Of a stretch of DNA of 21,743 bases, positions 3,478 through 21,344 are shown piece after piece. The position numbers and the translations under genes are program-made. Every line of letters starts with the position of its first letter. The first letter of the stretch is position 1. The notes beneath the pieces are model-generated. The model was not told the DNA's origin. It was given only the letters and a program-made list of their open reading frames with translations, and ran no database searches. The DNA comes from a virus: positions 1 to 21,743 of the IMG/VR virus record IMGVR_UViG_3300030107_004197. One strand, 5' to 3'.

Positions 3478-3872
3478 TGATTACAAGCCTAATAGAGCCA
3501 GTTACAGGGCTGTTAGATAAATTTATAGAGGATAAAGACCAGAAAGCTAAATTAGCCCATGAGATAGCCACTATGGGCGAGAAACACGCACAACAACTTA
3601 GTCTGGCACAAATAGAGGTCAACAAAGCAGAGGCGGCATCAGGTTCATTTTTTAAAGGTGGTTGGAGGCCGTTTGTGGGATGGGTATGTGCTGTGGCATT
3701 TGCTTATCATTTTGTAATTCAGCCGTTGTTGATATTCATATTTAGCTACATAGGGATAGAGCCACCAGATTTACCAGAATTTCAGATGAATACACTTTTA
3801 ACTGTTTTGGGCGGCTTATTAGGCATCGGAGGTTTGAGAACCTATGAAAAGCAAAAACAACTCACAAAGTAA
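3477..3872 (+). CDS. Holin, GTA-type three-segment family
   Basis: This 131-residue protein has an amphipathic, charged N-terminal half (residues 1-55, KLAHEIATMGEKHAQQLSLAQIEVNKAEA). It is followed by FFKGGWRPFVGWVCAVAFAYHF, the conserved GWRPFVGW entry into the first hydrophobic segment, then further hydrophobic segments at about 82-95 and 105-121. This is the arrangement of the GTA holin family (Holin_3TMs). It would form membrane lesions that let the upstream muramidase reach the wall. It starts within the TAATG overlap with the endolysin gene, and the end overlaps the next ORF by 29 bases. Confidence 0.85.
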   Translation: MITSLIEPVTGLLDKFIEDKDQKAKLAHEIATMGEKHAQQLSLAQIEVNKAEAASGSFFKGGWRPFVGWVCAVAFAYHFVIQPLLIFIFSYIGIEPPDLPEFQMNTLLTVLGGLLGIGGLRTYEKQKQLTK

Positions 3873-4116
3873 ATTAAAAAAAAAGAAACCTGTTTTATCT
3901 AACAAACAGAATATTAGGTTAGGTGGTTTAATAGCCGTATTATGCGACAGAGAGCCGTATCCAAACATTATGAAGGATTTAGAGGAGGGTGGGTTTATTA
4001 GCTACTCAGAGGGCAAAATTTCGCTTACAGAAGGTGGTAACAGGGAGATAGATAGACTATGCACCCTGTCTGGTTTAATGGTAGCTAGAGAGTCAATTAA
4101 AAATCAACCTGCCTAG
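3844..4116 (+). CDS. Small basic protein, possible winged helix, function unknown
   Basis: I do not recognise this 90-residue protein. The N-terminal 18 residues are very basic (KSKLKKKKP-like). The rest alternates helices and a short beta hairpin: LGGLIAVLCDREPYPNIMKDLEEGGFISYSEGKISLTEGGNREIDRL. The pattern helix, helix, LxxxGFIxxxxGKIxLTxxG is what a winged-helix domain looks like, so nucleic acid binding is possible. It overlaps the holin gene end by 29 bases and is the last gene of the rightward tail and lysis operon. Its end overlaps the end of the convergent leftward gene by 20 bases. A rightward hairpin with a T tract lies about 200 bases downstream. Confidence 0.6.
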   Translation: MKSKNNSQSKLKKKKPVLSNKQNIRLGGLIAVLCDREPYPNIMKDLEEGGFISYSEGKISLTEGGNREIDRLCTLSGLMVARESIKNQPA

Positions 4117-4306
4117 ATAGTTGTGAGGCGTTCAGTAAAAAAACACCCATGTTATCAAAACGCACAGAATAAGCTATTTTGGGTGAATCGACACTGTCAT
4201 AAGGTAAATAGTGAATCTTTTCTACTAACCCATGCACCTTATGAACAACATTAAATACAGGGTCAAATCCAAAAACTTCATCTCCAATTTTAAATTTATC
4301 TTTCAT
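4097..4306 (-). CDS. Small beta-rich protein, function unknown
   Basis: This 69-residue protein begins MKDKFKIGDEVFGFDPV and reads as a small SH3/Tudor-like barrel (KIGDEVFGF, KVHGLVEKIHY, KIAYSVRFDNMGVFLLNASQL). Such folds are common in small phage host-modulating proteins. The start is set by GGAGG seven bases upstream of the ATG at 4306. An upstream in-frame ATG has no ribosome binding site and would run through the hairpins. It is the second gene of the P1 operon. The GGAGG lies in a palindrome that may hide it from ribosomes. I cannot name a function. Confidence 0.65.
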   Translation of the reverse strand: MKDKFKIGDEVFGFDPVFNVVHKVHGLVEKIHYLPYDSVDSPKIAYSVRFDNMGVFLLNASQLSRQVDF

Positions 4307-4311
4307 GTTTA

Positions 4312-4324
4312 CCTCCGTAGGAGG
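4312..4324 (-). promoter_or_regulatory. Shine-Dalgarno enclosed in a CCTCC-TAC-GGAGG hairpin
   Basis: On the minus strand the ribosome binding site of the 4097-4306 gene is the 3' arm of a perfect 5-bp palindrome with a 3-base loop. The 5' arm overlaps the C run of the neighbouring GGGGG/CCCCC hairpin (4322-4339), so the two stems cannot form together. This could make translation of the downstream gene depend on which stem forms. It is visible directly, but function is inferred. Confidence 0.45.
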
Positions 4325-4342
4325 GGGAGTTACCCCCCTTTT
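4322..4342 (+). terminator. G/C-run hairpin with T tract, possible rightward terminator
   Basis: AGGGGG-AGTTAC-CCCCCT forms a 6-bp stem with a 6-base loop, followed on the plus strand by TTTTG. It lies downstream of the rightward tail and lysis operon, inside the leftward operon between two genes. On the minus strand it is an intercistronic hairpin without a U tract. The rightward T run is short, so termination may be partial. Confidence 0.45.
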
Positions 4343-4343
4343 G

Positions 4344-4841
4344 TTAAGTGTTAGGAAATAAGTCATTTGTTATCGGTGTTCTAGCATCGCCTTCTATTTG
4401 AAGGATACAGGTTTGGGTTATTAGGTTATCAACCCATCCTATAAACTGTCCTGCTAGGTGAGAAAATTTAGGGTCATCTTTAACCCTGTTTCCTGCTATA
4501 TAACCTCGCTTTTGAAACCATACACCCTTAGAGTTTTTCTTTAACTCTGTCGGTACATAAAGAGTATCCCATCCATTTGGGTCTTGCTCTTTTTGAGATT
4601 TAACAAATTCAGTATCTTCATTATCAGCGAGGATATACCAATTTGCAATATATGATTTATAATGGTCATTATCACAATTAATGAAAGGAGTAACTTCCTT
4701 AATAATAGTGTCAATGTTGTTAAATTCAATATTGTTGACAACGTAGGTTGTACCGATTTTATATTTCCATCTGTATTCCCCTGTGAAGCCTTCATGTGCC
4801 GCATAATTTTCTTCATCCTGCATTTCAATAATTAATTTCAT
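4344..4841 (-). CDS. Hypothetical protein, first gene of the P1 operon
   Basis: I do not recognise this 165-residue soluble protein. It starts MKLIIEMQDEENYA, then GEYRWKYKIGTTYVVNNI and DTIIKEVTPFINCDNDHYKSYIANWYILADNE, and ends with a beta-rich segment around LQIEGDARTPI. It is rich in aromatic residues and acidic, without membrane segments or metal-binding Cys clusters. The start at 4841 follows AGGAG at a good distance and the shared leader ending GAATAAAATG. It has a strong promoter of its own (P1) with a palindromic operator, and is followed by a G/C-run hairpin and a small second gene. A host-interaction or regulatory role is only a guess from the early-type promoter. Confidence 0.7.
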   Translation of the reverse strand: MKLIIEMQDEENYAAHEGFTGEYRWKYKIGTTYVVNNIEFNNIDTIIKEVTPFINCDNDHYKSYIANWYILADNEDTEFVKSQKEQDPNGWDTLYVPTELKKNSKGVWFQKRGYIAGNRVKDDPKFSHLAGQFIGWVDNLITQTCILQIEGDARTPITNDLFPNT

Positions 4842-4851
4842 TTTATTCTCC

Positions 4852-4901
4852 TAATTTGTGTATACGAATCACTTTAAGCTATCTGTTTACAAGTGTCAAC
4901 A
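4852..4901 (-). promoter_or_regulatory. Promoter P1 with palindromic operator, GANTC site and leader box
   Basis: Read on the minus strand: -35 TTGACA (4899-4894), a 17-base spacer, -10 TAAAGT (4876-4871), then GATTC (4870-4866) and an ACACAAATTA box (4861-4852) before AGGAG. The -35 lies in an imperfect palindrome TGTTGACA-CT-TGTAAACA (4901-4884). It drives the 4344-4841 gene. The same arrangement recurs at 6618-6669 and 21294-21344. Confidence 0.8.
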
Positions 4902-4907
4902 ACAATA

Positions 4908-5174
4908 TTAACCATATTTAGATTTCCCTTTTTTCCTACTACTTATTTGTTTGGTTTTTTTGTTTTTTATTTTAGGGATTGGTTTTAGTTTAAATTGCTC
5001 TGCAATAGATTCCAATCGTTGACGTTGATGCTGTTCTTTATTCCATTTTTCTTTTAAAGCCTCGAATTGTTCTTCCAATGATAATGGTCTTGGATTCCAT
5101 TTATTTTTCATCCTCTCATATTCGTCATTTAACATATTTACATAATGTTCTGCATTAGGGTGTTTTAACTTCAT
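4908..5174 (-). CDS. Basic coiled-coil protein, function unknown
   Basis: An 88-residue, strongly basic and helical protein. The N-terminal half is a long charged helix (NAEHYVNMLNDEYERMKNKW, then LEEQFEALKEKWNKEQHQRQRLESIAEQF). The last 25 residues are a Lys-rich tail (KIKNKKTKQISSRKKGKSKYG). This would suit nucleic acid binding, but no family was recognised. It is the last gene of the P2 operon and is coupled to the preceding gene by an ATGA overlap. Promoter P1 starts only a few bases after its stop. Confidence 0.6.
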   Translation of the reverse strand: MKLKHPNAEHYVNMLNDEYERMKNKWNPRPLSLEEQFEALKEKWNKEQHQRQRLESIAEQFKLKPIPKIKNKKTKQISSRKKGKSKYG

Positions 5175-5362
5175 TTTTCTTCCTCATATATTTCTATTTT
5201 TGTGCAGTTGGGTTTTTTAACAATAGGGTCTTTTGTCTGGTCAACTAAGTTAGCGACAAACATACAACCCTCTTTGTCTGGGAAATCAATCCTGTGAAGT
5301 GTTATGTCCTCTGTGAGATAATCATGTACGAGTATCACATAAAGGACATATACAACTTTCAT
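5171..5362 (-). CDS. Small protein with hydrophobic N-terminus, function unknown
   Basis: This 63-residue protein starts MKVVYVLYVILVHDYLTEDITLHRIDF and contains two cysteines (KEGCMFVANLVDQ and KKPNCTKIEIYEEEK). The first 13 residues are hydrophobic and could be a short signal or membrane anchor, with the two cysteines forming a disulfide outside the cytoplasm. The start at 5362 is chosen because its ATG overlaps the preceding stop as ATGA, as throughout this operon. An upstream in-frame ATG at 5392 lies inside the previous gene and has no ribosome binding site. Function unknown. Confidence 0.6.
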   Translation of the reverse strand: MKVVYVLYVILVHDYLTEDITLHRIDFPDKEGCMFVANLVDQTKDPIVKKPNCTKIEIYEEEK

Positions 5363-5520
5363 AATCCAAATAGTTGAAGCGGCATAATACAACTGCTTGT
5401 ATCATTCCACATGGAACTATCCCAAGTCTGACAATTAAGTATCAAATTGATACCTAAAAACATTATAAGGTATGCCATAACACACCCTACAACTATCATT
5501 GTTAAAGTATTTTTAATCAT
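5359..5520 (-). CDS. Small single-span membrane protein, function unknown
   Basis: A 53-residue protein with one clear membrane segment (about residues 6-29: LTMIVVGCVMAYLIMFLGINLIL), then a short polar tail with Trp and two Cys residues (QTWDSSMWNDTSSCIM). The start at 5520 overlaps the lipoprotein stop as ATGA, with AGGAG about nine bases upstream. Together with the lipoprotein before it and the two-cysteine protein after it, this makes three consecutive envelope-directed small genes. Superinfection exclusion or a spanin-like lysis role is possible, but nothing in the sequence decides it. Confidence 0.6.
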   Translation of the reverse strand: MIKNTLTMIVVGCVMAYLIMFLGINLILNCQTWDSSMWNDTSSCIMPLQLFGL

Positions 5521-5738
5521 AGTCCTGCTCCTATTATTGAATGCCCTCTGCCCTCTAAACAATCTTCCACTAGTAGTTTGTGGTTATATAAAAAAGACAT
5601 TGGTATATTGTTGACTATTCGTTTGCACTCAAACAAATCCCTCTCATAGTATTGGGCATTTGCTCCTGATGCTCTCAAATCTACTGTAGGGTTGCTACAA
5701 GCAGATAAACATAAAAAAGCTATAACTAAGTACCTCAT
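5517..5738 (-). CDS. Small lipoprotein
   Basis: This 73-residue protein has a short signal peptide and a clear lipobox: MRYLVIAFLCLSAC with the lipidated Cys at residue 14 and a +2 Ser. The mature part is about 60 residues with Cys residues in the contexts FECKRI and VEDCLEG. These could form a disulfide, consistent with an outer-membrane or periplasmic location. Small lipoproteins of phages include o-spanins and superinfection-exclusion factors such as T5 Llp. This one lies in an early-type leftward operon, not the lysis region, which slightly favours exclusion over lysis (inference). ATGA overlaps link it to both neighbours. Confidence 0.7.
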   Translation of the reverse strand: MRYLVIAFLCLSACSNPTVDLRASGANAQYYERDLFECKRIVNNIPMSFLYNHKLLVEDCLEGRGHSIIGAGL

Positions 5739-5971
5739 TGGCTCATCTCGTACAGTAGATTTGAGAATATACCATTGTCCTTTTTAGCTCTGACAATTTG
5801 TATTCTATAAGTGATTTGTTGTGTTGCTAATTCTATCATTTTAGTGATTGGACGTTTACCATTTTCTAACAAACAGATTGAACTTCTATTTTTTAGGCCT
5901 AGAAGTTGAGCGACTTGAGATTGTGTTAACCCCAAATTGTTTCGCCATTCTTTAAATTCATTCGGTGTCAT
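5735..5971 (-). CDS. XRE-family (Cro/C1-type) transcriptional regulator
   Basis: A 78-residue single-domain helix-turn-helix protein. Residues 5-42 give the classical pattern: FKEWRNNLGLTQSQVAQLLGLKN then SSICLLENGKRPI, with the TQ.QVA.LLG first helix and the recognition helix ending at the ENGKR motif. It lies in the middle of the P2 operon and is a candidate repressor or autoregulator of promoters P1, P2 and P3, whose -35 boxes sit in a shared TGTTGACA palindrome. That link is inferred. The start at 5971 lies 11 bases upstream of the preceding stop, with GGAG placed before it. Confidence 0.85.
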   Translation of the reverse strand: MTPNEFKEWRNNLGLTQSQVAQLLGLKNRSSICLLENGKRPITKMIELATQQITYRIQIVRAKKDNGIFSNLLYEMSQ

Positions 5972-6164
5972 TTGTGTTTCTCCAATTCTTCAAAAGTCCA
6001 TTAAGATGATTTTCTAATAACCTATGAACCTCTTTAGCAAAGTCTAAATCATAGGTTTCTGGGTTAGACCTGTCTGCAATAATGTCAGCTAGGTCTACTG
6101 CGTTGATGTAGCGAAGGTCAGATTTTATCCGACCTATCGCCAATTTTCTGGAAGTATCTGTCAT
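5958..6164 (-). CDS. Small hypothetical protein
   Basis: A 68-residue, mostly helical protein starting MTDTSRKLAIGRIKSDLRYINAVDLADIIADRS. It has a second helix DLDFAKEVHRLLENHLNGLLKNW. No membrane segment, metal site or known domain is visible. The start at 6164 is set by an ATGA overlap with the preceding gene. Longer in-frame starts upstream would read far into that gene. Its end overlaps the XRE regulator by 14 bases, so the two are likely translated together. Position directly before an HTH gene in a small-gene operon is the arrangement used to find anti-CRISPR-like genes, but that alone proves nothing. Confidence 0.6.
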   Translation of the reverse strand: MTDTSRKLAIGRIKSDLRYINAVDLADIIADRSNPETYDLDFAKEVHRLLENHLNGLLKNWRNTNDTE

Positions 6165-6367
6165 CTGAATACCCCTTGCAACTTTGGAGGCAAACCAATA
6201 GTCATGTGTTTTTCTTTTATGGGAAAATGAACATTGCCTATGCGAACATTCCAAATACCCTCAAAATCGCTTTTGGAAACAATCGTAGCTTTTTTCTTAT
6301 AATAAAAGCTATCTCTATCTCCTATCCAAATTTCGGTATTACCCATGTAAGTATTTTGTGCAGTCAT
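6161..6367 (-). CDS. Small beta-rich hypothetical protein
   Basis: This 68-residue protein alternates short strands: NTEIWIGDRDSFYYKKKATIVSKSD, GIWNVRIGNVHFPI, HMTIGLPPKL. This suits a small barrel similar to SH3-like host-modulating proteins. The start at 6367 follows AAGGAG and the leader box ACACAAATTA (6388-6379) shared with the promoter-proximal genes, although no -35/-10 pair stands directly before it. It may therefore be an operon-internal gene with a strong translation start. Function unknown. Confidence 0.6.
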   Translation of the reverse strand: MTAQNTYMGNTEIWIGDRDSFYYKKKATIVSKSDFEGIWNVRIGNVHFPIKEKHMTIGLPPKLQGVFR

Positions 6368-6378
6368 TTTATTCTCCT

Positions 6379-6388
6379 TAATTTGTGT
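6379..6388 (-). promoter_or_regulatory. Operon-internal ACACAAATTA leader box
   Basis: The sequence before this gene start (CATAACACAAATTAAGGAG) matches the transcribed leader of P1 and P2, but the -35, -10 and palindrome are missing. The box therefore seems to work at mRNA level, near the Shine-Dalgarno, and not as part of the promoter. A variant box precedes the annealing-protein gene (8531-8541). Confidence 0.45.
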
Positions 6389-6396
6389 TATGGGAA

Positions 6397-6606
6397 TTAG
6401 TTACCCCACATATCCTGTGCAATTGTTTCAGGTGTTTGGTTTGGGTTTTTGATTAACTTATCAGAAATTTGCAATAAATCATCTCCGTCTTTTGCGTAGA
6501 TACCTACATAGCCAGTCGCATGATGATACACTCCGTAGCAATCATCACCAAAATCTGCGATAATGTTTGCAGTGTTATATTCTATTGTAGTCAATCCTAA
6601 AAACAT
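6397..6606 (-). CDS. Small acidic hypothetical protein, first gene of the P2 operon
   Basis: A 69-residue acidic protein: MFLGLTTIEYNTANIIADFGDDCYGVYHHATGYVGIYAKDGDDLL, then a helix ISDKLIKNPNQTPETIAQDMWGN. The first half suggests a beta-sheet mini-domain and the second half a helix. No family was recognised. It is the promoter-proximal gene of the P2 operon and so should be the most strongly expressed of the eight. Small acidic early proteins are often host inhibitors or nucleic-acid mimics, which is a possibility and not a call. The ribosome binding site is the weaker AAGGGA. Confidence 0.6.
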   Translation of the reverse strand: MFLGLTTIEYNTANIIADFGDDCYGVYHHATGYVGIYAKDGDDLLQISDKLIKNPNQTPETIAQDMWGN

Positions 6607-6617
6607 TTTATTTCCCT

Positions 6618-6669
6618 TAATTTGTGTCTATACGAATCATATTATGGTATTTGTTTACAGGTGTCAACA
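6618..6669 (-). promoter_or_regulatory. Promoter P2 with palindromic operator, GANTC site and leader box
   Basis: On the minus strand: TTGACA (6667-6662), a 17-base spacer, TAATAT (6644-6639), GATTC (6638-6634), then ACACAAATTA (6627-6618). The -35 is inside TGTTGACA-CC-TGTAAACA (6669-6652). It has the best -10 of the family and drives the eight-gene small operon down to 4908. Confidence 0.82.
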
Positions 6670-6686
6670 CATTAATTAAATAAACA

Positions 6687-6711
6687 TAAAAAAAGCCTCA
6701 ATTAAGAGGCT
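6687..6711 (-). terminator. Rho-independent terminator of the recombination operon
   Basis: On the minus strand AGCCTC-TTAATT-GAGGCT (6711-6694) forms a 6-bp stem followed by a run of T. It overlaps the last codons and stop of the AlpA-like gene and separates the recombination operon from promoter P2, which starts about 20 bases further on. Confidence 0.85.
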
Positions 6712-6908
6712 GAGTTTTTAACAGGGAGGTTATTCTGACTTGTTTTTTCAGTTTCTATGAAAGTATCCAAATCAGATACATCCCAGAGTACTCGCTTTTT
6801 TCCAATTCTCAAAGAAATTAATTGTTTTTCTTTAGCAAGTTTTAAAAAAGTAGACCTGCCGACTCCTAAATATTGTCCTGCTTCTAATGCTGATAATAGT
6901 TTTTTCAT
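6702..6908 (-). CDS. AlpA/excisionase-like helix-turn-helix protein
   Basis: A 68-residue MerR-like/excisionase-type DNA-binding domain. It reads LLSALEAGQYLGVGRSTFLKLAKEKQL, then LRIGKKRVLWDVSDLDTFIE: the helix-turn-helix, a wing, and the W-D-x-x-D-L-D-x-F-I close typical of this family. The start at 6908 is set by an ATGA overlap with the preceding gene. Such proteins serve as excisionases or as transcription activators. No integrase is in the window, so a regulatory role is the safer reading. It is the last gene of the recombination operon, just before the terminator. Confidence 0.82.
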   Translation of the reverse strand: MKKLLSALEAGQYLGVGRSTFLKLAKEKQLISLRIGKKRVLWDVSDLDTFIETEKTSQNNLPVKNSAS

Positions 6909-7228
6909 ATCTTTGTCGCTCTCATATTTGCACTTTGCGTTTGCCATGCCATAATTTTGGCTTCTGCCGCTTGTCGTTTGAACTTGTGTTGTTCATCTAA
7001 ATGGATAGCATTTCTTAACGCACCCAAATGCTTTTGATAGCGTTCATCTGCGTAGGCTTCACGCTCTTGAGCAGTCACAGGTTTATCCAAATGCTCCTTC
7101 ATTATTAGAGCCTTTAAAGACTTTCTAAACTCATCTAAATATTTTCTATTAGCTGTAGCAACAGCCGCTTCATTAGAAGAGTCACGCAGGTAATCAACAG
7201 CTTTTTCTACGTCAGTTTCATTTATCAT
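6905..7228 (-). CDS. Helical phage protein of the recombination operon, function unknown
   Basis: This 107-residue, almost entirely helical and highly charged protein contains VEKAVDYLRDSSNEAAVATANRKYLDEFRKSLKALIMKEH, then TAQEREAYADERYQKHLGAL and a C-terminal coiled stretch HKFKRQAAEAKIMAWQTQSANMR. Similar helical proteins often sit beside phage recombination genes, but I cannot name a characterised family with certainty. It overlaps the HNH nuclease gene by 11 bases and the AlpA-like gene by ATGA, so it is co-translated with both. Confidence 0.65.
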   Translation of the reverse strand: MINETDVEKAVDYLRDSSNEAAVATANRKYLDEFRKSLKALIMKEHLDKPVTAQEREAYADERYQKHLGALRNAIHLDEQHKFKRQAAEAKIMAWQTQSANMRATKI

Positions 7229-7532
7229 GTGGCGAGTTCTCCCATAGGTATTTTGCTATCTGTTGACCGAACAATTCATCTCCTGTCGCTTCTTTAAAAT
7301 ACGCAAATTCATTACCTCGTTTGTGTAATAAATAGTGATGTTTATAACACAAAGGAATTACGTTTTTGTCGTTGGCTCGTAAGCCCACCCCCCTAAACCC
7401 CTCAAAGGGTTTAAGGAGATGGTGTGCCTGTATGTAACCTTCACATAACGCAGGAAAGTGTGCCGACAAACAACAGGGTTGTTCTGAAACCCACATCAGA
7501 TGCTTTTTATTTTGGTATCGTTTCTTTTTCAT
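7218..7532 (-). CDS. HNH-type nuclease, DUF968/Ref-like
   Basis: A 104-residue protein with the hallmarks of small phage HNH recombination nucleases. An early Cys pair region (EQPCCLSAHFPALCEG) is followed by IQAHHLLKPFEGFRGVGLRANDKNVIPLCYKHHYLLHKRG. The AHH at about residues 36-38 and the IPLCxxHHxxLH segment would hold the metal and catalytic site, as in DUF968, YbcO and P1 Ref-type proteins. Such enzymes cut DNA during recombination or recombination-dependent replication. It lies downstream of a strand-annealing protein and nuclease, which fits. The start overlaps the preceding gene by 26 bases. Confidence 0.78.
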   Translation of the reverse strand: MKKKRYQNKKHLMWVSEQPCCLSAHFPALCEGYIQAHHLLKPFEGFRGVGLRANDKNVIPLCYKHHYLLHKRGNEFAYFKEATGDELFGQQIAKYLWENSPHDK

Positions 7533-7728
7533 ACGGATAAAACTTTACACCAAAATATGGCGAACCTTTTTGAGTTGTGTTGTGGAAAAGACGCATTCGT
7601 AATCTGGGTTTTGTAACCATGTCCTCGACCTGTTGCCTTACAGATAAAACAGCGGCTTCATCTAATTCTACTATGCCATCTGGGGCTTTTACAAAAAGCA
7701 TATTGGCAAAATCTTTATCATTCTCCAT
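7507..7728 (-). CDS. Small hypothetical protein of the recombination operon
   Basis: A 73-residue protein: MENDKDFANMLFVKAPDGIVELDEAAVLSVRQQVEDMVTKPRLRMRLFHNTTQKGSPYFGVKFYPYEKETIPK. I read an N-terminal beta-turn-helix part and a C-terminal beta hairpin with basic residues. No known domain was identified. It starts 11 bases inside the end of the HTH gene, with AGGAG upstream, and overlaps the HNH nuclease start. Its place suggests an accessory of recombination or ssDNA metabolism, without direct evidence. Confidence 0.6.
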   Translation of the reverse strand: MENDKDFANMLFVKAPDGIVELDEAAVLSVRQQVEDMVTKPRLRMRLFHNTTQKGSPYFGVKFYPYEKETIPK

Positions 7729-7942
7729 TTATTTCTCCTCTATAAAAATATCGTTTAAATTTTACTGGTTCACCAAACTTGTTTTTTGATTTCTGATATT
7801 CACCATCTATGATATGGTTTTCTCTTAATCTGTGAATTGGTGTGCTTAATTTACTAATACCGAACAAGTCCTTTGCTTCATTCTGTGTTAGTCCTCTAGG
7901 ATTGTTTTTTAAATAATCCAATACTCTTGATTGACCTCTCAT
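7718..7942 (-). CDS. Small helix-turn-helix protein (HTH_39-like)
   Basis: This 74-residue protein contains RVLDYLKNNPRGLTQNEAKDLFGISKLSTPIHRLRENHIIDGEY, the pattern of helix-turn-helix domains in phage proteins that regulate or assist recombination (VLxyLk...glTqxEA...fgIxxLxxxIxxLRxxxhxI). A basic tail with alternating aromatic residues follows (VKFKRYFYRGE). The start at 7942 is chosen because AAGGGG precedes it and because it lies two bases after the upstream stop. A longer in-frame start at 8002 would overlap the annealing protein. DNA binding is likely; the target is unknown. Confidence 0.75.
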   Translation of the reverse strand: MRGQSRVLDYLKNNPRGLTQNEAKDLFGISKLSTPIHRLRENHIIDGEYQKSKNKFGEPVKFKRYFYRGEINGE

Positions 7943-7943
7943 A

Positions 7944-8519
7944 TTAGAACCCCTTTGGTTGAGAGGGTGGTGTATCCCTCCATTGTGGTTTAATGTGGTC
8001 ACCCTTTTTTACATCAGAACCTGTAAACTCCTGTTTGTAAACTTTACCAGAACTTACAACCTCTTCTTTTTTTGGTTTCCATTTGCCCTCATAAATACTC
8101 ATTCCAAGTCCGAGCATGGCAATACACTTGACCAAACACCTCATCTTGGTGTCAGAGATATCTCTGGCATCTGGATTTTTGATTGCGTTGTTTTGATAAT
8201 TCATAACAGGCAACCACATCTCTTGATGTTTATCGCCTATGCTCACAGTACAATGAACTGTAGCCGTATTATCAATATGATACTGACAATCTTGTGGAGT
8301 ATCATTTACAATAAATCTTTCAAACCGATAAGTGGCATGAGGATAAACTTGTAAGAGTTGCCGCCAAGCGACAGACCATTTTAAATAATATAAATAGTAA
8401 GTTCCCTTTTTCCCAGTTTGTTCACGCTTATCAACGTCAGCGTCATCAATAGCAATATTATAGAGTGTATTAAAATCCCACTCTAGCTTTTTTGCTTTGG
8501 GTTCTTTTGGTTCAGTCAT
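7944..8519 (-). CDS. Single-strand annealing protein, DUF1071 (Sak3-like)
   Basis: This 191-residue protein resembles the DUF1071 family of phage recombinases. Diagnostic stretches are GTYYLYYLKWSVAWRQLLQVYPHATY, the ATVHCTVSIGDKHQEMWLPVMNYQNNAI block, and TKMRCLVKCIAMLGLGMSIYEGKW (the Ala/Gly-rich helix before G-x-G-x-x-x-Y-E). These proteins bind ssDNA and anneal complementary strands, in the role of Red-beta or Erf, usually with an exonuclease. Here the PD-(D/E)XK gene lies just upstream. The start at 8519 follows AAGGAG in the common GAATAAAATG leader. A longer in-frame reading has no ribosome binding site. The last 40 residues are a basic, Pro-rich tail. Confidence 0.82.
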   Translation of the reverse strand: MTEPKEPKAKKLEWDFNTLYNIAIDDADVDKREQTGKKGTYYLYYLKWSVAWRQLLQVYPHATYRFERFIVNDTPQDCQYHIDNTATVHCTVSIGDKHQEMWLPVMNYQNNAIKNPDARDISDTKMRCLVKCIAMLGLGMSIYEGKWKPKKEEVVSSGKVYKQEFTGSDVKKGDHIKPQWRDTPPSQPKGF

Positions 8520-8520
8520 T

Positions 8521-9360
8521 TTATTCTCCTTTGACTTGTGTTGTGCCACCCAATAACTGTGAAGCGGCTTTTTTGTTTTTTTCCGACCAAAGATACATAT
8601 GGTCGAAGTATGGTAGTTTCTGGGCAAAAACTTCAAAAATATCATTTGAGAAACTTAAATAGGTTTCCATTTGCTTTGCTATTTGAAGCACATGGTCAAT
8701 ATAAGGCACATTGTGATATGGCTCACAAACATCCATCTTAATCGCTTGATGTGGGCTAGACTCTGTTGGCGTAACGTAATCAAAAAAAACAGTTTTGTTT
8801 GTTACTTCACGATATATAGCCGCTTGTCGTTGATGGTCATTACTTGGTTTGTTAACTCGTCTGCCACCTGTTTTTAAATCTCTAACATGATTTTTATATT
8901 CAAAATCTAGATAGCCAACAAAAGGAATTGGAACATCTCCAAGAAATGCCTCGATTTTACGTTCAATAGCTAAAGGCTCTGTAAGATATGTGCTTTCATA
9001 ATAAGTAAAAGCATTGTACCACATCCTTCCAGAATTGCGTTCTGCTAATGCAATTTGCTTTTCGTCAAAGCCACAATCGTTTGCTTTAAATTTATCGTCA
9101 ACCCATTCATATTTTAGTAAATCTCTTAACTCGTATGGTGCAGGGTTGTCGTGCATATGCCCATCAAGATTGTTTTGTAATGCTCTGTGGACAGCCGTTC
9201 CCATGTGAGCAGAAATTCCAACTGAGTTGTCAAACTCAACAAGACCATTCCGACCCATTACCTTGAAAACCCAATAACTAGGGTCATGTACAAATTGATT
9301 AATACTAGAAGCACTTAAATGCTCTATATTATATTTTTCAAAAACGCTTTTATTTCTCAT
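8521..9360 (-). CDS. PD-(D/E)XK exonuclease, RecB/Cas4-like
   Basis: A 279-residue nuclease with the ordered RecB-family motifs. LSASSINQFVHDPSYW (residues 15-30) is followed by GTAVH with the metal-binding His at 58, an ERKIE stretch near 133, GYLDF with Asp152, DLKTG (Asp161 to Lys163), and QAAIY (the QxxxY motif, 179-183). The whole active site appears intact. There is no Cys cluster, so it is not an iron-sulfur Cas4-type enzyme. Next to the DUF1071 annealing protein it forms a two-component recombination system, like Red-alpha with Red-beta. It is the first gene of the leftward recombination operon, starting after AGGAG and the shared leader. Confidence 0.88.
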   Translation of the reverse strand: MRNKSVFEKYNIEHLSASSINQFVHDPSYWVFKVMGRNGLVEFDNSVGISAHMGTAVHRALQNNLDGHMHDNPAPYELRDLLKYEWVDDKFKANDCGFDEKQIALAERNSGRMWYNAFTYYESTYLTEPLAIERKIEAFLGDVPIPFVGYLDFEYKNHVRDLKTGGRRVNKPSNDHQRQAAIYREVTNKTVFFDYVTPTESSPHQAIKMDVCEPYHNVPYIDHVLQIAKQMETYLSFSNDIFEVFAQKLPYFDHMYLWSEKNKKAASQLLGGTTQVKGE

Positions 9361-9437
9361 TATATTCTCCTATAATAATTTGTGTAAAACACAGATAAAC
9401 TATAATAAACCATAAATCAATAGGAAAGATAAAAAAA
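9361..9437. promoter_or_regulatory. Divergent promoter region
   Basis: This 77-base gap separates the leftward recombination operon from the rightward genes. Minus strand: TTGATT (9420-9415), a 17-base spacer, then TATCTG; a TATAGT-like element also overlaps. This precedes the ACACAAATTA box (9385-9376) and AGGAG. Plus strand: TATAAT at 9401-9406 with TTTGTG about 16 bases upstream. The small palindrome TGTGT-AAA-ACACA (9381-9393) lies in the leader. The TGTTGACA operator of P1-P3 is absent. Confidence 0.5.
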
Positions 9438-9602
9438 ATGTTATTTACCTGTAAATATAAAACTGAAACTGAAGAAGCTGAAATTAAATTTCACGAGGAA
9501 TTTGAAAATATGGACATAGTTTTAAAAATGGATTCGTTGCAGGATGCTCTAGCTATTTTAACAGAAAAATATGAAAGTATGTTTAAAAGTGAACAAGTAT
9601 AA
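9438..9602 (+). CDS. Small acidic hypothetical protein
   Basis: A 54-residue acidic protein starting MLFTCKYKTETEEAEIKFHEEF and continuing VLKMDSLQDALAILTEKYESMF. It has one Cys near the N-terminus and two probable helices; no family was recognised. The start follows AGGAAAG at a suitable distance. It is the first rightward gene after the divergent promoter region and overlaps the DUF1064 gene by 14 to 32 bases, depending on which start that gene uses. Confidence 0.55.
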   Translation: MLFTCKYKTETEEAEIKFHEEFENMDIVLKMDSLQDALAILTEKYESMFKSEQV

Positions 9603-9909
9603 AAATATTAAAACAGTTGTTGATGGAATTACTTTTGATTCTAAAAAAGAGGCGGCACGATACTCTGATTTAAAATTGCTTGAAATAGCACACCATATTA
9701 TGCACTTGGAAACACAACCCAGATTTCCCTTAATGGTAAATGGGAAACAGGTTGCAACGTACATTGGCGATTTCAAATATTGGTCACCTTTAGAAAATGA
9801 TTGGATAGTTGAGGATGTTAAATCCGAAGCAACAAAAACTTCCACATACAGACTAAAAAAGAAGATACTTGAAGCACAAGAGCCACCTGTTATAATAACT
9901 GAAATCTAG
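9571..9909 (+). CDS. DUF1064-family endonuclease (predicted PD-(D/E)XK fold)
   Basis: This protein of up to 112 residues matches the DUF1064 pattern: NKYKNIKTVVDGITFDSKKEAARYSDL with FDSKKEA (FxSxxEA), then THxPRFPL-like LETQPRFPLMVNGKQVATYIGDFKYW, VEDVKSEAT and STYRLKKKILEA. The Glu of KKEA, the Asp of IGDFKY and the EDVKS pair give a plausible PD-(D/E)XK site like that of phage Holliday-junction or T7-endonuclease-like enzymes. The start may instead be the GTG at 9589, giving the common MNKY beginning. The ATG at 9571 overlaps the preceding gene by 32 bases. It probably processes recombination intermediates of the adjacent operon. Confidence 0.83.
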   Translation: MKVCLKVNKYKNIKTVVDGITFDSKKEAARYSDLKLLEIAHHIMHLETQPRFPLMVNGKQVATYIGDFKYWSPLENDWIVEDVKSEATKTSTYRLKKKILEAQEPPVIITEI

Positions 9910-11012: not shown

Positions 11013-11058
11013 TTGACTTTTTTAATCGTATAGTATTAAAGTCGATTCACACAAATTA
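11013..11058 (+). promoter_or_regulatory. Promoter P4 for the replication operon
   Basis: TTGACT (11013-11018) lies 17-18 bases before TTAAAG/TAAAGT (11036-11042). GATTC (11044-11048) and ACACAAATTA (11049-11058) follow, then AGGAG and the initiator ATG. It shares the GANTC site and leader box with P1-P3, but lacks their TGTTGACA palindrome, so it should not be under the same operator control. Confidence 0.75.
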
Positions 11059-11074
11059 AAATTAGGAGAATACA

Positions 11075-11704
11075 ATGAGCATCGAAGCTATTAATTACGC
11101 TTTTAAATGTCAGACAAAAAACGCTACACAGAAAGCAGTGTTGCTTGTTTTGGCAAACTACTCTAACGAAAACAATCAATCATATCCCTCTATTTCTACA
11201 ATATCCAGACTATCAACTTGTCAGAGTAGAACAGTTATTAGGGCATTAAAAGAACTAGAAGAAAGTGGGTTTATTCAAAAGATGCCCAGATTTAATGATA
11301 AGGGTCAAACGTCTAATCTCTATACTGTAGGGGGTGACAGAAACGACATGGGGGGGGTGACAGAAACAACACCCAATACTAAAGAGGATACTTCTATTAA
11401 TATAAAGATAAGGGGTGACAAAAAAGACACCCCCTATACATCTCAATTTAGGCAATGGTGGGAGTTGTACCCCAGAAAAGCAGGTTCTAAGAAAGAGGCA
11501 TTTAAAGTATTTCAAAAGGTATTACAAAAAGAAGATTATGGGAAGATTTATAAGGCGACAGATATTTTCTCACATAATATTAGACTAAATAATCACACAG
11601 ATGTAAAATTTATACCACACCCTGTTACTTGGCTTAGACAGGAGAGATGGGAAACAGTAACTAAAGAAGAAAACAACACAAATTTAAATCGATTGGCAGG
11701 ATAA
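11075..11704 (+). CDS. Replication initiator, lambda O-like, with HTH domain
   Basis: A 209-residue initiator. Residues 1-85 are a winged helix-turn-helix (QKAVLLVLANYSNENNQSYPSISTISRLS, then SRTVIRALKELEESGFIQK), the domain that binds origin repeats in lambda O-type proteins. A low-complexity linker (residues 86-120) is followed by a C-terminal domain starting FRQWWELYPRKAGSKKEAFKVF and ending TWLRQERWETV. This end is common in phage replication proteins that load helicase. The linker DNA carries three copies of a 20-base repeat and an AT-rich stretch, as expected if the origin lies inside the gene. A run of eight G (11350-11357) is inside. It is followed two bases later by the primase-helicase. 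Confidence 0.82.
   Translation: MSIEAINYAFKCQTKNATQKAVLLVLANYSNENNQSYPSISTISRLSTCQSRTVIRALKELEESGFIQKMPRFNDKGQTSNLYTVGGDRNDMGGVTETTPNTKEDTSINIKIRGDKKDTPYTSQFRQWWELYPRKAGSKKEAFKVFQKVLQKEDYGKIYKATDIFSHNIRLNNHTDVKFIPHPVTWLRQERWETVTKEENNTNLNRLAG
11330..11438 (+). repeat. Candidate replication origin: three 20-bp iterons and an AT-rich spacer
   Basis: Three copies of a GGGGGTGACAGAAACRACAC-like unit lie at 11330-11349, 11353-11372 and 11411-11430. Copies 1 and 2 match at 18 of 20 bases. Copy 3 differs from the others at three to five positions. Copies 1 and 3 are in the same codon phase (GGDRND, RGDKKD), but copy 2 is in another phase (GVTETT), so the repeat is kept at DNA level and not as protein. 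Copy 3 is followed by the inverted GACACCCCCTATA. The 36 bases between copies 2 and 3 are strongly AT-rich, as in lambda ori. Confidence 0.7.
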
Positions 11705-13540: not shown

Positions 13541-14785
13541 ATGGAAATTGAAAAAGTTAAGACAGATGTTTTAATTCCCTATGTTCGAAATGCAAGAACG
13601 CATAGTGACGAACAGGTGGCACAGATATGTGGTTCTATTAAGGAATTTGGATTTACAAATCCTGTATTGATTGATTCAGAAAAAGTAATCATAGCAGGTC
13701 ATGGTAGAGTTATGGCGGCTCAACGTATGGGGCTAAGTGAAGTTCCATGTATTACATTAGATTATCTAACAGAAGCACAAAAGAAAGCATACATAATAGC
13801 TGACAACCAATTAGCATTAAACGCAGGTTGGAACGAAGAACTGTTAGCACTTGAGATAGAAGAACTTAATGACTTAGATTTTAATTTAGACCTGTTGGGA
13901 TTTGATGACCCACTTAAATTTCTCCCAGATAAAGAGGGGCATACTGATGAAGATGAAGTTCCTGATGTACCAGATAATCCTGTAACTAAGGAGGGGGACT
14001 TGTGGGTATTAGGTAATCACAAAATACTGTGTGGTGACAGTACAAGTGAGAAGGTGCTTTCAATATTAATGCAAGGCAAGAAAGCAGATTTAGTATTTAC
14101 AGACCCCCCATACAATGCTGATTACAAGTCTAGAGGAGCAGATGAACTTTTAAAAAAGGGCATAAAAAATGATAATATGTCAGATGATGAGTTTCAAAAC
14201 TTTATTGAAAAGGTGTTTTGTGCAATTAAACAAAATATTTATAAAGGAAGTTCTATGTATGTCTGTTGTAATTGGAAAGATTCTTATCCAAGATTTTATT
14301 TTATTGCAAAAGAAAATGATGTAAACGTGTCGAACTGTATTGTGTGGAACAAAGAAAGTGCAGGTATGGGATGGCAAGATTACAGGTATCAGTTTGAATT
14401 TATACTTTATGGTTTTGAAAATAGTAAAACACATAACTTTTATGGTGACAGAACAAATACAGACCTTTGGTCACTGAAAAGAGAAGCAAGACAAAAATAT
14501 GTGCATCCAACGCAAAAACCTGTAGAGCTTATTGAGAAAGCAATAAAGAACTCTAGTTTACCAGAGCATACTGTTCTTGACCTGTTTTTAGGGTCAGGAA
14601 GTACACTAATTGCATCACAAAAAAATAATAGAAAGTGTTTTGGAATTGAGTTAGACCCAAAATATTGTGATGTCATAATAGAGAGATGGCAAAACTACAC
14701 ACAGGAGAAAGCAATACTAGAGTCAAATGGAAAAACCTTTGAAGAATTAAAAAATTCTGTTATGAGTGAAAAAACAACAAAGTGA
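13541..14785 (+). CDS. ParB-like nuclease domain fused to DNA adenine/cytosine-N4 methyltransferase
   Basis: A 414-residue fusion. Residues 1-100 are a ParB/Srx-type N-terminal domain (VRNARTHSDEQVAQICGSIKEFGFTNPVLID, then IAGHGRVMAAQRMG with GHGR at 53-56, and ADNQLALNAGW). From about 150 an amino-methyltransferase follows: LVFTDPPYN with DPPY at 188-191, a target-recognition part, HPTQKP, and the SAM site VLDLFLGSGSTLIA, then CFGIELDPKYCDVIIERW. The DPPY-before-FxGxG order is beta class, like CcrM. No restriction enzyme is adjacent, so it is an orphan that may protect phage DNA or alter promoters. Specificity is unknown; GANTC would be a natural test. It starts after AAAGG next to a structured leader. 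Confidence 0.92.
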   Translation: MEIEKVKTDVLIPYVRNARTHSDEQVAQICGSIKEFGFTNPVLIDSEKVIIAGHGRVMAAQRMGLSEVPCITLDYLTEAQKKAYIIADNQLALNAGWNEELLALEIEELNDLDFNLDLLGFDDPLKFLPDKEGHTDEDEVPDVPDNPVTKEGDLWVLGNHKILCGDSTSEKVLSILMQGKKADLVFTDPPYNADYKSRGADELLKKGIKNDNMSDDEFQNFIEKVFCAIKQNIYKGSSMYVCCNWKDSYPRFYFIAKENDVNVSNCIVWNKESAGMGWQDYRYQFEFILYGFENSKTHNFYGDRTNTDLWSLKREARQKYVHPTQKPVELIEKAIKNSSLPEHTVLDLFLGSGSTLIASQKNNRKCFGIELDPKYCDVIIERWQNYTQEKAILESNGKTFEELKNSVMSEKTTK

Positions 14786-18687: not shown

Positions 18688-18879
18688 TTGAATATCTGTC
18701 CTGTGTGTAGGCACAATATGAAAGTAGTTGATAACAAGTTGAGGTGTATGTTTTGTGAGGAGTTTTATTGTTATGATATGTCAAAAGAATGGTTGGATTA
18801 TATAGCAAACAAATCACATGGCACAACTACAGTACAAACAGAACCGAATAAGAATAGCCGCAAGAAAAGAACTCCTTGA
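18688..18879 (+). CDS. Small zinc-ribbon protein
   Basis: A 63-residue protein with a zinc ribbon: CPVC at residues 4-7 and CMFC at about 20-23, followed by an aromatic stretch EEFYCYDMSKEWLDYIA and a basic tail ending SRKKRTP. The start is the TTG at 18688, three bases after the portal stop, because the next ATG would remove the first CxxC pair. The gene overlaps the MuF gene by 62 bases. Small zinc ribbons near head genes are of unknown role and could bind DNA or a head protein. Confidence 0.6.
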   Translation: MNICPVCRHNMKVVDNKLRCMFCEEFYCYDMSKEWLDYIANKSHGTTTVQTEPNKNSRKKRTP

Positions 18880-20380
18880 GCAGAATAGATTGCGTAATGG
18901 GTTTGAAAGGAAGCTAGTAAGACAGCTTCAGAGCGGATTTAAAGCCACAGGAAGGCTTGCAAGGGAAGAATACGAGCAATTGGGTAGGCTCGTTGAAACA
19001 AGCCGTCAAAGCGAAAGAAAACTGCGTGACGTATTAGAGTCGCATTATAGGGCAGTTATAGATGCCTTTGGAACTAGAGTGCTTAGAAATCGCAAGCAGG
19101 ACTCACAGTTTGAAATACTGATTAGAGAATATATGAATACTGTGGGTGGTACACGCATCACCCAGATAAACAACACAACAATGAAAGCCATAAATAAGGT
19201 TATATCAAAAGGTGCTGTCGAAGGGTTAGGGGTACAAGCCATAGGCAAAAACATCTTTGACAAGATGGATGGTTCATTTAGTAAATTACGAAGCCAAACA
19301 ATATCAAGAACGGAAACCCATAGTGCGGCTAGTTACTCAAACGATAGGGTCAACGCATCTTTAGGCATACCAAACCAGATAAAAAGGTGGGTATCGGTAG
19401 CAGATGCAAGAACTAGGTCATGGCACGTTGCCCTAAATGGAACAGAGGTGGGTAAAGATGAACCTTTCACAGTTACAGTAAAGGGTATCAGCTATAAAAT
19501 GGATTATACAGGTGACCCAAAAGGGGGAGCAGTAAACACAATAAACTGTAGATGTGTTACCCTATACCTAGACCCAGATGATGTGATAGTTGACCAACCA
19601 GAAACAATAGTAGAAAAACCTGTTAAACCTGTAGAGCCACCAAAAGCACCAAATGTTTCTATAAGTTTGTTAATAAAAACAGGGTCAGAAAAGGTAAGAG
19701 AGGAATATGATTTGGAATTTAATTCACAACTTACTGACCAACAGAAAAGGATTGTAGCAAAATATAATAAACCATCTGTAATAGTAATAAATAAAGATGG
19801 ATACTATCAATCATGGGATAAAGAAATGTCAGCAAGACCAAATCAAAAAAACGGAAAAACAAAATCGTTTGTTATATCACATGAATATGGGCATCATATT
19901 GATTATGAGACAAGTGGTAGAACTTTAGCATGGTCAGAAACAAATGAGGAGTTTCGCAATGCAATAGACAAAGATAGAAGAAATTTTAAAGGAAAAAATA
20001 TTAAGGATAAATATTATATAGATAAAAAAGAGTTTAGCGTTTTATTTGCTAAAATTGGCAAATTAGAAAAAAAAGAAATTAAAAGCAGTAGGACAGGTAA
20101 TGTGCTTTCTACATATGAAACTGTTGAGCCACTTGATGATGGTTTTGCAAACGTAAGTGACATCATAGATGCTTTAGCAAGAGGAAAGTTTCAAAGACCG
20201 TTCCAGACTTTTGGACATGGCGAGAGATATTACAAAAGATTTGGTGCTATAGAAAAAGAAATTTTCGCTAACCTGTTTTCCTTGAAGCATAACTCAAAAG
20301 CCTATGCACTAGCAAAAACCATTGTGCCAAATACTGTAAAAGAATTTGAAAAAAGATTAGACGAACTTGAGAGGAATTAG
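18818..20380 (+). CDS. MuF-type head morphogenesis protein fused to a HEXXH metallopeptidase-like domain
   Basis: A 520-residue protein of two halves. Residues 1-255 are the minor head protein of the SPP1 gp7/Mu F family: a helical N-terminus, TISRTETHSAASYSNDR (160-176), KRWVSVADARTRSWHVALNG (189-208), and a closing NTINCRCV with NCRC at 243-246. A Pro/Val/Lys-rich linker (258-279) follows. The rest contains a zincin-like motif SHEYGHHIDYE (His355-Glu356-x-x-His359) and, later, EIFANLF around Glu481, a plausible third zinc ligand. MuF proteins enter the head, and fused toxin-like domains are known in temperate phages. This may therefore be a delivered peptidase or a head maturation factor. 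The fusion is clear; the target is unknown. Confidence 0.85.
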   Translation: MAQLQYKQNRIRIAARKELLEQNRLRNGFERKLVRQLQSGFKATGRLAREEYEQLGRLVETSRQSERKLRDVLESHYRAVIDAFGTRVLRNRKQDSQFEILIREYMNTVGGTRITQINNTTMKAINKVISKGAVEGLGVQAIGKNIFDKMDGSFSKLRSQTISRTETHSAASYSNDRVNASLGIPNQIKRWVSVADARTRSWHVALNGTEVGKDEPFTVTVKGISYKMDYTGDPKGGAVNTINCRCVTLYLDPDDVIVDQPETIVEKPVKPVEPPKAPNVSISLLIKTGSEKVREEYDLEFNSQLTDQQKRIVAKYNKPSVIVINKDGYYQSWDKEMSARPNQKNGKTKSFVISHEYGHHIDYETSGRTLAWSETNEEFRNAIDKDRRNFKGKNIKDKYYIDKKEFSVLFAKIGKLEKKEIKSSRTGNVLSTYETVEPLDDGFANVSDIIDALARGKFQRPFQTFGHGERYYKRFGAIEKEIFANLFSLKHNSKAYALAKTIVPNTVKEFEKRLDELERN

Positions 20381-20973: not shown

Positions 20974-20991
20974 GTGGGGTTAAACCCCCAC
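20974..20991 (-). other. Intercistronic G/C-run hairpin
   Basis: GTGGGG-TTAAAC-CCCCAC (20974-20991) overlaps the stop of the ArdC-like gene and precedes the AAGGAG of the DUF3846-like gene on the minus strand. It has no T tract, so it looks like a stability or spacing element between two cistrons. It resembles the hairpin at 4322-4339, which has the same position in the P1 operon. Confidence 0.5.
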
Positions 20992-21279
20992 CCCATTTGC
21001 TGTTAATATTGATTCAATGTGGCTTCTTTCAAAAACTGTAAAGTAAGTAGGAACTTTTTTGGTTTCTTCTTTTTTAGTTATTTTGTTGATAACCTTTTTA
21101 GTTACAATTTTCATTAACCTTGCACATCCTTTTGCACCTTTTAGTTCTTTTCCTGTAAGGTTATAAAAAGTCTTAGCTTGCTTAAATGTGCAAAATTCTG
21201 AACCTTCTTCAAAACCTGCGTTAATAAGTTCTTCTATGTTTGAACCTTGATATTCTGCGTTTGATATAAAATTTCTCAT
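20980..21279 (-). CDS. ArdC-like N-terminal domain protein (possible anti-restriction)
   Basis: A 99-residue protein that resembles the N-terminal ssDNA-binding domain of ArdC: FCTFKQAKTFYNLTGKELKGAKGCARLMKIV matches the (W/F)xTFKQAxxxGxxxxKGxKG pattern, and after a Lys-rich stretch TYFTVFERSHIESI matches the (F)xVFNxxQI close. ArdC-type proteins protect incoming DNA from restriction. This lacks the C-terminal metalloprotease part, so only the binding part is present. The start at 21279 is downstream of promoter P3, and a longer in-frame reading would begin in the operator. I hold the family call at moderate confidence. Confidence 0.6.
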   Translation of the reverse strand: MRNFISNAEYQGSNIEELINAGFEEGSEFCTFKQAKTFYNLTGKELKGAKGCARLMKIVTKKVINKITKKEETKKVPTYFTVFERSHIESILTANGVGV

Positions 21280-21293
21280 TTTTGTTTCCTTGT

Positions 21294-21344
21294 TAATTTG
21301 CGTTATACGAATCACTTTATAGATGTTGTTGACATCTGTCAACA
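21294..21344 (-). promoter_or_regulatory. Promoter P3 with perfect palindromic operator, GANTC site and leader box
   Basis: On the minus strand: TTGACA (21342-21337), a 17-base spacer, TAAAGT (21319-21314), GATTC (21313-21309), and the variant leader ACGCAAATTA (21303-21294). The -35 lies in a perfect 18-bp palindrome TGTTGACA-GA-TGTCAACA (21344-21327), the best-matching of the three operator copies. It drives the ArdC-like and DUF3846-like genes. Confidence 0.8.

Follow-up and report, generated by a model that had tools for sequence, protein, structure and literature searches.

An operator-like palindrome shared by the promoters of three small-gene islands in an uncultured phage

We analyzed the whole 21,743-base IMG/VR record IMGVR_UViG_3300030107_004197 (hereafter the window), and in particular eight small leftward genes located at 4908-6606 behind a promoter named P2. 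These genes had been proposed to form one operator-controlled operon devoted to anti-defence or host takeover. We favor another reading, with a probability of roughly 60%, in which the eight genes would be one of at least three islands of cargo genes governed by one repressor and exchanged behind resident, near-identical promoters. The promoters of the leftward islands are indeed near-identical, and their -35 boxes lie beneath a palindrome of pattern TGTTKACANNTGTMAACA. The islands appear to behave as slots, where promoter, start region and ribosome-binding leader stay in place and the genes are exchanged, with a break within five bases of the start codon. This slot reading is based on one relative for P2 (contig L004, whose exonuclease is 92% identical) and on several for P3. 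For P1, an exchange is suggested by homologues in other phages that share the coding sequence only.

One palindrome on three leftward promoters

P2 resembles a sigma-70 promoter, with TTGACA as -35 (6667-6662), a spacer of 17 nt and TAATAT as -10 (6644-6639), and the palindrome over its -35 reads TGTTGACACCTGTAAACA. The pattern TGTTKACANNTGTMAACA is present in three exact copies in the window and in no other at up to two mismatches, where 0.04 would be expected; none of 100 shuffles of the window held three copies. All three palindromes lie on leftward promoters of accessory genes, in the same placement relative to the -35 and -10, and P1, P2 and P3 also have in common the sequence GATTCGTATA downstream of the -10 and, close to the start codon, a leader. 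A cluster of small accessory genes with an HTH gene behind an operator-like promoter is retained from the original prediction, but the eight-gene operon had to be rejected as a functional unit, since the same palindrome is also found on P1 and P3 and serves three islands. The regulatory features are the following.

6694-6711, minus strand: terminator-like hairpin with a T run, separating the upstream genes (9360-6702) from P2; L004 has it too
6652-6669, no strand: palindrome O2, 18 bp, over the -35 of P2; same site in L004
4884-4901, no strand: palindrome O1, over the -35 of P1 (-35 at 4899-4894, -10 at 4876-4871)
21327-21344, no strand: palindrome O3, over the -35 of P3 (-35 at 21342-21337, -10 at 21319-21314)
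6604-6638, minus strand: start region and leader of P2 gene 1, GATTCGTATA and then ACACAAATTAAGGGAAATAAAATG
6365-6388, minus strand: second leader copy, before P2 gene 2, ACACAAATTAAGGAGAATAAAATG
11013-11077, plus strand: promoter and leader of a replication gene, with -10 and leader as in P1-P3 and no palindrome; internal control

Promoter-like hexamer pairs are not clearly enriched in the region 3800-9700 (27 found, against a mean of 23.1 with a standard deviation of 4.9), and it is therefore the palindrome and the leader common to the promoters that provide the evidence. When each upstream stretch was shuffled 300 times, the leader, ACACAAATTA..GGAGAATAnAATG, was equalled by no shuffle before seven of the 31 starts examined, namely those of the exonuclease, the annealing protein Sak, P2 genes 1 and 2, the P1 gene, the P3 gene and the replication gene 11075. 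At this level it precedes none of the structural genes among the 31 starts scored, and weaker forms are seen before 6164 (4 of 300 shuffles) and 11707 (5 of 300). The reference for scoring was the window copy at 6367, whose perfect score is thus by construction; the Sak start was placed 6 bases too far in (true ATG at 8519) and the terminase start is uncertain. In front of the exonuclease gene (9360-9400), the leader is preceded by an inverted repeat, TGTGT-TTT-ACACA, that differs from the cargo palindrome.

The promoter of gene 11075 provides a useful control. It has the same -10 and leader, with TTGACT, and lacks the palindrome in the window as well as in contigs L105 and L005. The palindrome is therefore an element of its own, separate from the -10 and leader, that belongs to the cargo promoters. 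In IMG/VR, the leader pattern was found in two contigs, L004 and L106. We took the latter match as chance, because L106 has no palindrome at up to two mismatches and appears to belong to an unrelated phage. The palindrome and -10 of P1 are also matched, at 91% over 22 bases and possibly by chance, in three contigs retrieved on account of their endolysin (L069 4936-4957, L071 2420-2441 and L075 5385-5406; E 0.025).

Gene replacement in relatives

The genes of the three islands are listed below. The anatomy predicted for P2 was borne out by the reading frames, with eight leftward genes of 53-88 codons within 4908-6606 behind an operator-like promoter and most genes linked by ATGA. This 4-bp overlap is found at five of the seven junctions, the others being a 14-bp overlap at 5958/5971 and a 29-bp gap at 6367/6397 that carries its own leader. 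As also predicted, the XRE gene comes after three small genes. Signal peptides, lipobox, membrane spans and the HExxH motifs mentioned further on were all read by eye.

6397-6606, minus strand: P2 gene 1, 69 aa; unrelated gene at the same place in L004
6161-6367, minus strand: P2 gene 2, 68 aa; unrelated gene at the same place in L004
5958-6164, minus strand: P2 gene 3, 68 aa; an orthologue starts in L004, 88% over 25 aa before the contig end
5735-5971, minus strand: P2 gene 4, 78 aa, XRE/HTH_3 protein; candidate repressor of the operators
5517-5738, minus strand: P2 gene 5, 73 aa, predicted lipoprotein with lipobox LSAC
5359-5520, minus strand: P2 gene 6, 53 aa, single hydrophobic stretch
5171-5362, minus strand: P2 gene 7, 63 aa, hydrophobic start, two Cys
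4908-5174, minus strand: P2 gene 8, 88 aa, basic C-terminus
4344-4841, minus strand: P1 gene, 165 aa, no Pfam match
4097-4306, minus strand: probable second P1 gene, 69 aa
20980-21279, minus strand: P3 gene 1, 99 aa, resembles the ArdC N-terminal (anti-restriction) domain PF08401
20662-20961, minus strand: P3 gene 2, 99 aa, DUF3846 (28.1 bits for a cut-off of 27.5)

At P2, L004 retains the terminator, palindrome, promoter and leader and continues with two unrelated genes (88 and 66 aa), the second of which has its own leader copy, before rejoining the window at gene 3. The two sequences are 84.6% identical over 2810 columns, in a block ending 2 bases past the ATG. Such a replacement of the first two genes would be as expected of cargo involved in host interaction. 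Absence of the genes from close relatives had been put forward as a sign against the original prediction. It is indeed observed for two of the eight genes, and it is not decisive, because absence with replacement is also predicted for exchangeable cargo.

At P3, five contigs of the group were compared (the window, L006, L007, L008 and G002). The ArdC-like gene follows P3 in the window, in L007 and in L006, which ends inside the gene. An unrelated gene takes this place in L008, and three other genes followed by DUF3846 do so in G002. The window and G002 are 97% identical up to 1 base past the ATG, and the alignment resumes only within DUF3846; for L007 and L008, the identity is 98.9% over 1147 columns and breaks off 5 bases beyond the ATG, the genes that follow being unrelated. 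The palindrome is perfect in four of the five contigs and has one mismatch in G002. In the more distant contigs L109-L111, an ArdC-like gene (77-78%) occupies the same place behind a related palindrome, GGTTTACTATTATAAACT, which retains the half-site core and differs in its outer and inner bases. A search for GGTTTACTATTATAAACT returned the same three contigs only, with one site each, and the multi-site set was not seen there. Contig copies were counted once (L108 = L007, L113 = L006, L114 = L111, L115 = L109 and L116 = L110), and L112 possibly represents a further part of the L006 phage.

Some further observations concern the surroundings of P3. Contig-specific small genes lie across the P3 promoter, on the opposite strand, in L110 (16-1181), L111 (2007-2995) and L109 (1543-1815); with small genes on both sides, the P3 site may take cargo in both directions. 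L110 also has an insert in the P3 leader (1335-1429), downstream of the -10 and ahead of the ribosome-binding site. Its two arms, at about 1345-1358 and 1413-1426, pair into a long hairpin of -23.1 kcal/mol over 95 bases, a value without shuffle control. A single 14-base match, with at most one mismatch, is found in L032 and may be due to chance. The MuF head protein beside P3 has C-terminal parts that are unlike among close relatives (window 18818-20380; L008 443-2266; L104 68-1540; L007 1952-2734). HExxH motifs are present in three of them (HEYGH, HEFGH and HEFAH), and such an extension is absent in L007.

The P1 gene has 10 homologues with 64-75% identity in other viral contigs, and the 11 proteins align from M1. 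When the 119 bases upstream of the gene were compared by blastn, the P2 and P3 promoters of relatives matched, and nothing matched upstream of any of the 10 homologues. A different promoter, TTGACTTGTTCTGAAAACAATG, searched as a regular expression, is found in eight of the 10 loci L014-L023 and directly before the P1 homologue in five of the 10; we rejected it as the same operator, given that its sequence differs. A PADLOC match of the P1 protein to 'Specificity_I' (E 0.0013) was also dropped, since Pfam supported it in none of the 11 members at E <= 0.5. The structure model of the protein was of low confidence (pLDDT 62) and gave no Foldseek match at E <= 0.001.

These data bear on whether the islands could be classical morons, in which promoter and gene travel as one inserted cassette. 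Accessory genes with their own predicted promoter, and the replacement of P2 genes 1-2 and of the P3 genes in relatives, are indeed traits of morons, as would be three near-identical promoter copies in one genome. P3 adjoins the MuF gene and points against the direction of the late genes, another point in favor of morons; in relatives, the gene on its far side is a protease-like head gene, judged by sequence and place. However, the flanks of P2 and P3 are continuous through promoter and leader to the ATG, and the P1 homologues of other phages lack this promoter, which makes a travelling cassette rather unlikely. No relative with an empty site was seen among those examined.

We thus prefer exchange behind resident promoters, and propose the following mechanism. 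The leader repeated before several genes would supply the homology for exchange, which would probably be performed by the Sak annealing protein and the PD-(D/E)XK exonuclease of the phage. On entry, the promoters would be free and strongly active early in infection. The operators would later be occupied by a phage repressor, for which the XRE protein encoded behind P2 is the likeliest candidate, and the cargo would thereby be switched off. The cargo itself would most likely counter host defence or adjust host functions.

On the other hand, the palindrome could be the site of a host regulator, the islands then responding to the state of the host rather than to a repressor of the phage. The palindrome has no known ligand among the phage proteins, and the XRE gene was seen in no relative, an absence that favors a host regulator and also weighs against our own proposal. 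However, the palindrome of the distant phages differs in its outer and inner bases, in keeping with a phage repressor and its sites evolving together. Moreover, a 31-base pattern made of half-site and start region matched only one of 84,980 species genomes, that of Paenibacillus lupini; this match was taken as chance, and the operator scan shows no full palindrome there. Regulation by the host is, in our opinion, unlikely.

Content and possible role of the islands

The window comes from an uncultured, siphophage-like phage. Its plus strand codes for terminase, portal, MuF-type head protein, tape measure, distal tail protein, endolysin and holin, as well as for a helicase-primase and a ParB-methyltransferase; besides the small genes, the minus strand codes for the PD-(D/E)XK exonuclease, Sak, a DUF968 protein and an HTH_17 protein (6702-6947). 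End repeats are absent, and records of this sort are often fragments; part of the genome is apparently missing. No integrase was noticed among the open reading frames searched, which were not all those of the window. When the entire window was compared by megablast with 50,697 phage records, nothing matched, and the large terminase reaches no more than 51% identity with those of named phages. The gene 13541-14785, in which a ParB N-terminal domain is joined to a domain of N6/N4 DNA methyltransferases, could serve for self-protection against restriction.

An anti-defence role of the cargo is plausible, and its best lead is P3 gene 1, with a weak but consistent match to the ArdC N-domain, an anti-restriction domain that binds ssDNA. 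All five members compared, window included, match ArdcN at E <= 0.01 (best 8e-5), and the PHROGs match of P3 gene 1 is to an anti-restriction family (E 0.013). For the eight P2 genes, the function is suggested by association only: as no P2 gene was recognized, an anti-defence role is deduced from shared control and exchange. The proposal of an anti-defence or host-takeover cargo thus keeps part of its force, owing to the replacement in L004 and to the ArdC-like gene under the same palindrome.

Regarding the P2 proteins themselves, six of the eight genes use codons much as the phage core genes do, the score being reached by between 0 and 8 of 500 base shuffles, although another frame of the lipoprotein gene 5517-5738 scores equally well; the XRE and single-span genes are not distinguished by this measure (116 and 114 of 500 shuffles as high). 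The XRE protein passes the Pfam HTH_3 cut-off (27.1 bits for 23) and is the only one of the eight matched in PADLOC. Nothing above Pfam or NCBIfam cut-offs was found for the other seven, whose PHROGs matches are weak and concern families of unknown function. Three matches below cut-off were not used, namely DUF6095 in Pfam for gene 6 (18.2 bits for 23.8, E 0.0029), a Dynamin-like helical domain for gene 8 (E 0.019) and NCBIfam antitoxin models for XRE (best E 3.7e-5, 23.6 bits for 71.65). We also rejected the P2 proteins as virion parts, on absence of a match, which does not disprove such a role.

Homologues were searched in 110 of 116 loci, six window stretches being excluded; an earlier run excluded eight of 103 loci (six window stretches, L009 of G002 and L011 of G001). 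In IMG/VR, 13 stretches fit a peptide pattern of XRE and none was confirmed. The proteins of 4344, 5958, 5517 and 20980 had no tblastn match in the 50,697 phage records (E limits of 0.01, 1, 1 and 0.1, respectively), and XRE had a single weak one, in a Campylobacter phage; among P2 proteins, these searches covered 5958, 5517 and XRE.

An HTH gene among small genes and a palindrome on the promoter could suggest a dedicated acr-aca anti-CRISPR operon, with XRE as an Aca autorepressor acting on P2. A weak match of XRE to Aca3 (E 0.089 over residues 2-32) would agree with this idea. It is, however, the last of six, behind DBP48 (2.7e-4), a lambda repressor-like protein (0.013) and the 434 repressor (0.064) among others. 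Furthermore, XRE is the fourth of eight genes, the palindrome is also present on two islands without an HTH gene, and the seven other proteins have no match above Pfam or NCBIfam cut-offs and none in PADLOC, libraries that may lack some Acr families. We thus consider an acr-aca operon as very doubtful, the least probable of the alternatives.

The lipoprotein and membrane proteins of P2 might also block later phages at the envelope. This superinfection exclusion draws on sequence features, that is the lipobox of 5517-5738 and the hydrophobic stretch of 5359-5520. It would concern at most three of the eight genes and no named exclusion family was matched in PHROGs or PADLOC, so that we regard it as distinctly unlikely, slightly less so than an acr-aca operon.

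Several other observations count against exchangeable cargo islands as we conceive them. First, the 110 loci contain no relative of seven of the eight P2 genes, among them XRE. Two of these seven are replaced in L004, and the comparison stops before the other five: L004, the sole relative that spans P2, breaks off after 76 bases of gene 3, and the P2 comparison consequently leaves out the XRE gene and the genes beyond. Second, a terminator-like site lies within gene 6 (5493-5462, minus strand, 14 pairs of which 3 G-C) and none is listed between gene 8 and P1; the P2 unit may thus stop early or continue into 4344-4841. Third, the ArdcN match of the window protein (E 1.6e-4, 22.3 bits) is just under the Pfam cut-off of 22.6, and of the remaining four members three are almost the same protein. 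The structure model of this protein is poor (pLDDT 57), and Foldseek used with it puts ArdC 6i89 at rank 13 with an E of 2.0; as no match reached E <= 0.001, no fold is claimed. Finally, when PDB sequences were searched with a profile of the five members, ArdC was absent from the matches up to E 10.

A more ambitious and rather improbable hypothesis would be that repressor, operator and leader form a plug-in socket present at three or more places, where the annealing recombinase of the phage itself would graft, at the ATG, anti-defence genes taken from phages of other kinds. If so, every gene behind the socket would be a candidate defence inhibitor, and the sequence of the socket alone could find new inhibitors in bacterial phages. 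Counter-defence genes of phages are often small, fast-changing and hard to detect by homology, and a regulatory socket kept while genes change would offer a handle independent of gene homology. A candidate test set would consist of the genes that follow P1, P2 and P3 in the window, together with the replaced genes of L004, L008 and G002.

Comparison with known systems

That accessory genes lie in plastic regions or are shuffled beside HTH genes is well known (PMC4396842, PMC7648647). Within the set of papers that we searched by topic, no description of this association of promoter, palindrome and leader came up, the sequence itself not being searchable there.

The acr-aca islands resemble the present ones by their shuffled runs of small genes with an HTH regulator and by anti-restriction genes nearby (PMC7648647). 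Unlike in these islands, no known Acr or Aca was matched here, the HTH gene lies in mid-run and one operator serves three islands (PMC7648647). With regard to ArdC, the protein of 20980-21279 and four other members match the N-domain PF08401, but the former is a solo 99-aa protein without the metallopeptidase part and scores at the cut-off (PMC7213743, PMC5512222).

A parallel can also be drawn with the mosaicism of phages that carry Rad52-like recombinases, where genes are exchanged at divergent homology; the window likewise has Sak and an exonuclease (PMC3945230). Those phages are temperate coliphages whose recombination was measured, whereas exchange is here read from sequence alone (PMC3945230).

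For the leader, the nearest analogy is the SAS/ESAS elements of Cluster K mycobacteriophages, where a short sequence with a Shine-Dalgarno core also stands just before the ATG of non-structural genes (PMC3203893). SAS precede different gene families, and about half have an upstream inverted repeat whose consensus varies by subcluster (PMC3203893). Cluster K genomes hold 11-19 copies of unknown role, against seven leaders among 31 starts and three palindromes covering a -35 here (PMC3203893). The leaders ACACAAATTA..GGAGAATAnAATG and the 13-bp repeat of Cluster K, GGGATAGGAGCCC, would be the same kind of element from different families; GGGATAGGAGCCC itself was not scanned for.

The nearest precedent is the virus-wide early promoter of anti-defence genes in SIRV2-type archaeal viruses, which led there to validated inhibitors (PMC11065993). 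In both cases, one virus-wide regulatory sequence heads several unrelated small accessory genes (PMC11065993). For the SIRV2 type, a repressor has been proposed to bind the sequence, which is better kept than the genes, and in some consensus sequences inverted repeats lie over the promoter (PMC11065993). SIRV2 promoters are archaeal, with TATA/BRE elements and known early expression, whereas the promoter described here is of bacterial type and read from sequence (PMC11065993). Unlike in SIRV2, an 18-bp palindrome covers the -35 and genes are replaced at the ATG in relatives (PMC11065993). Altogether, by analogy, the same logic as in these archaeal viruses may operate in an uncultured group of bacterial phages, with a plausible route for the exchange.

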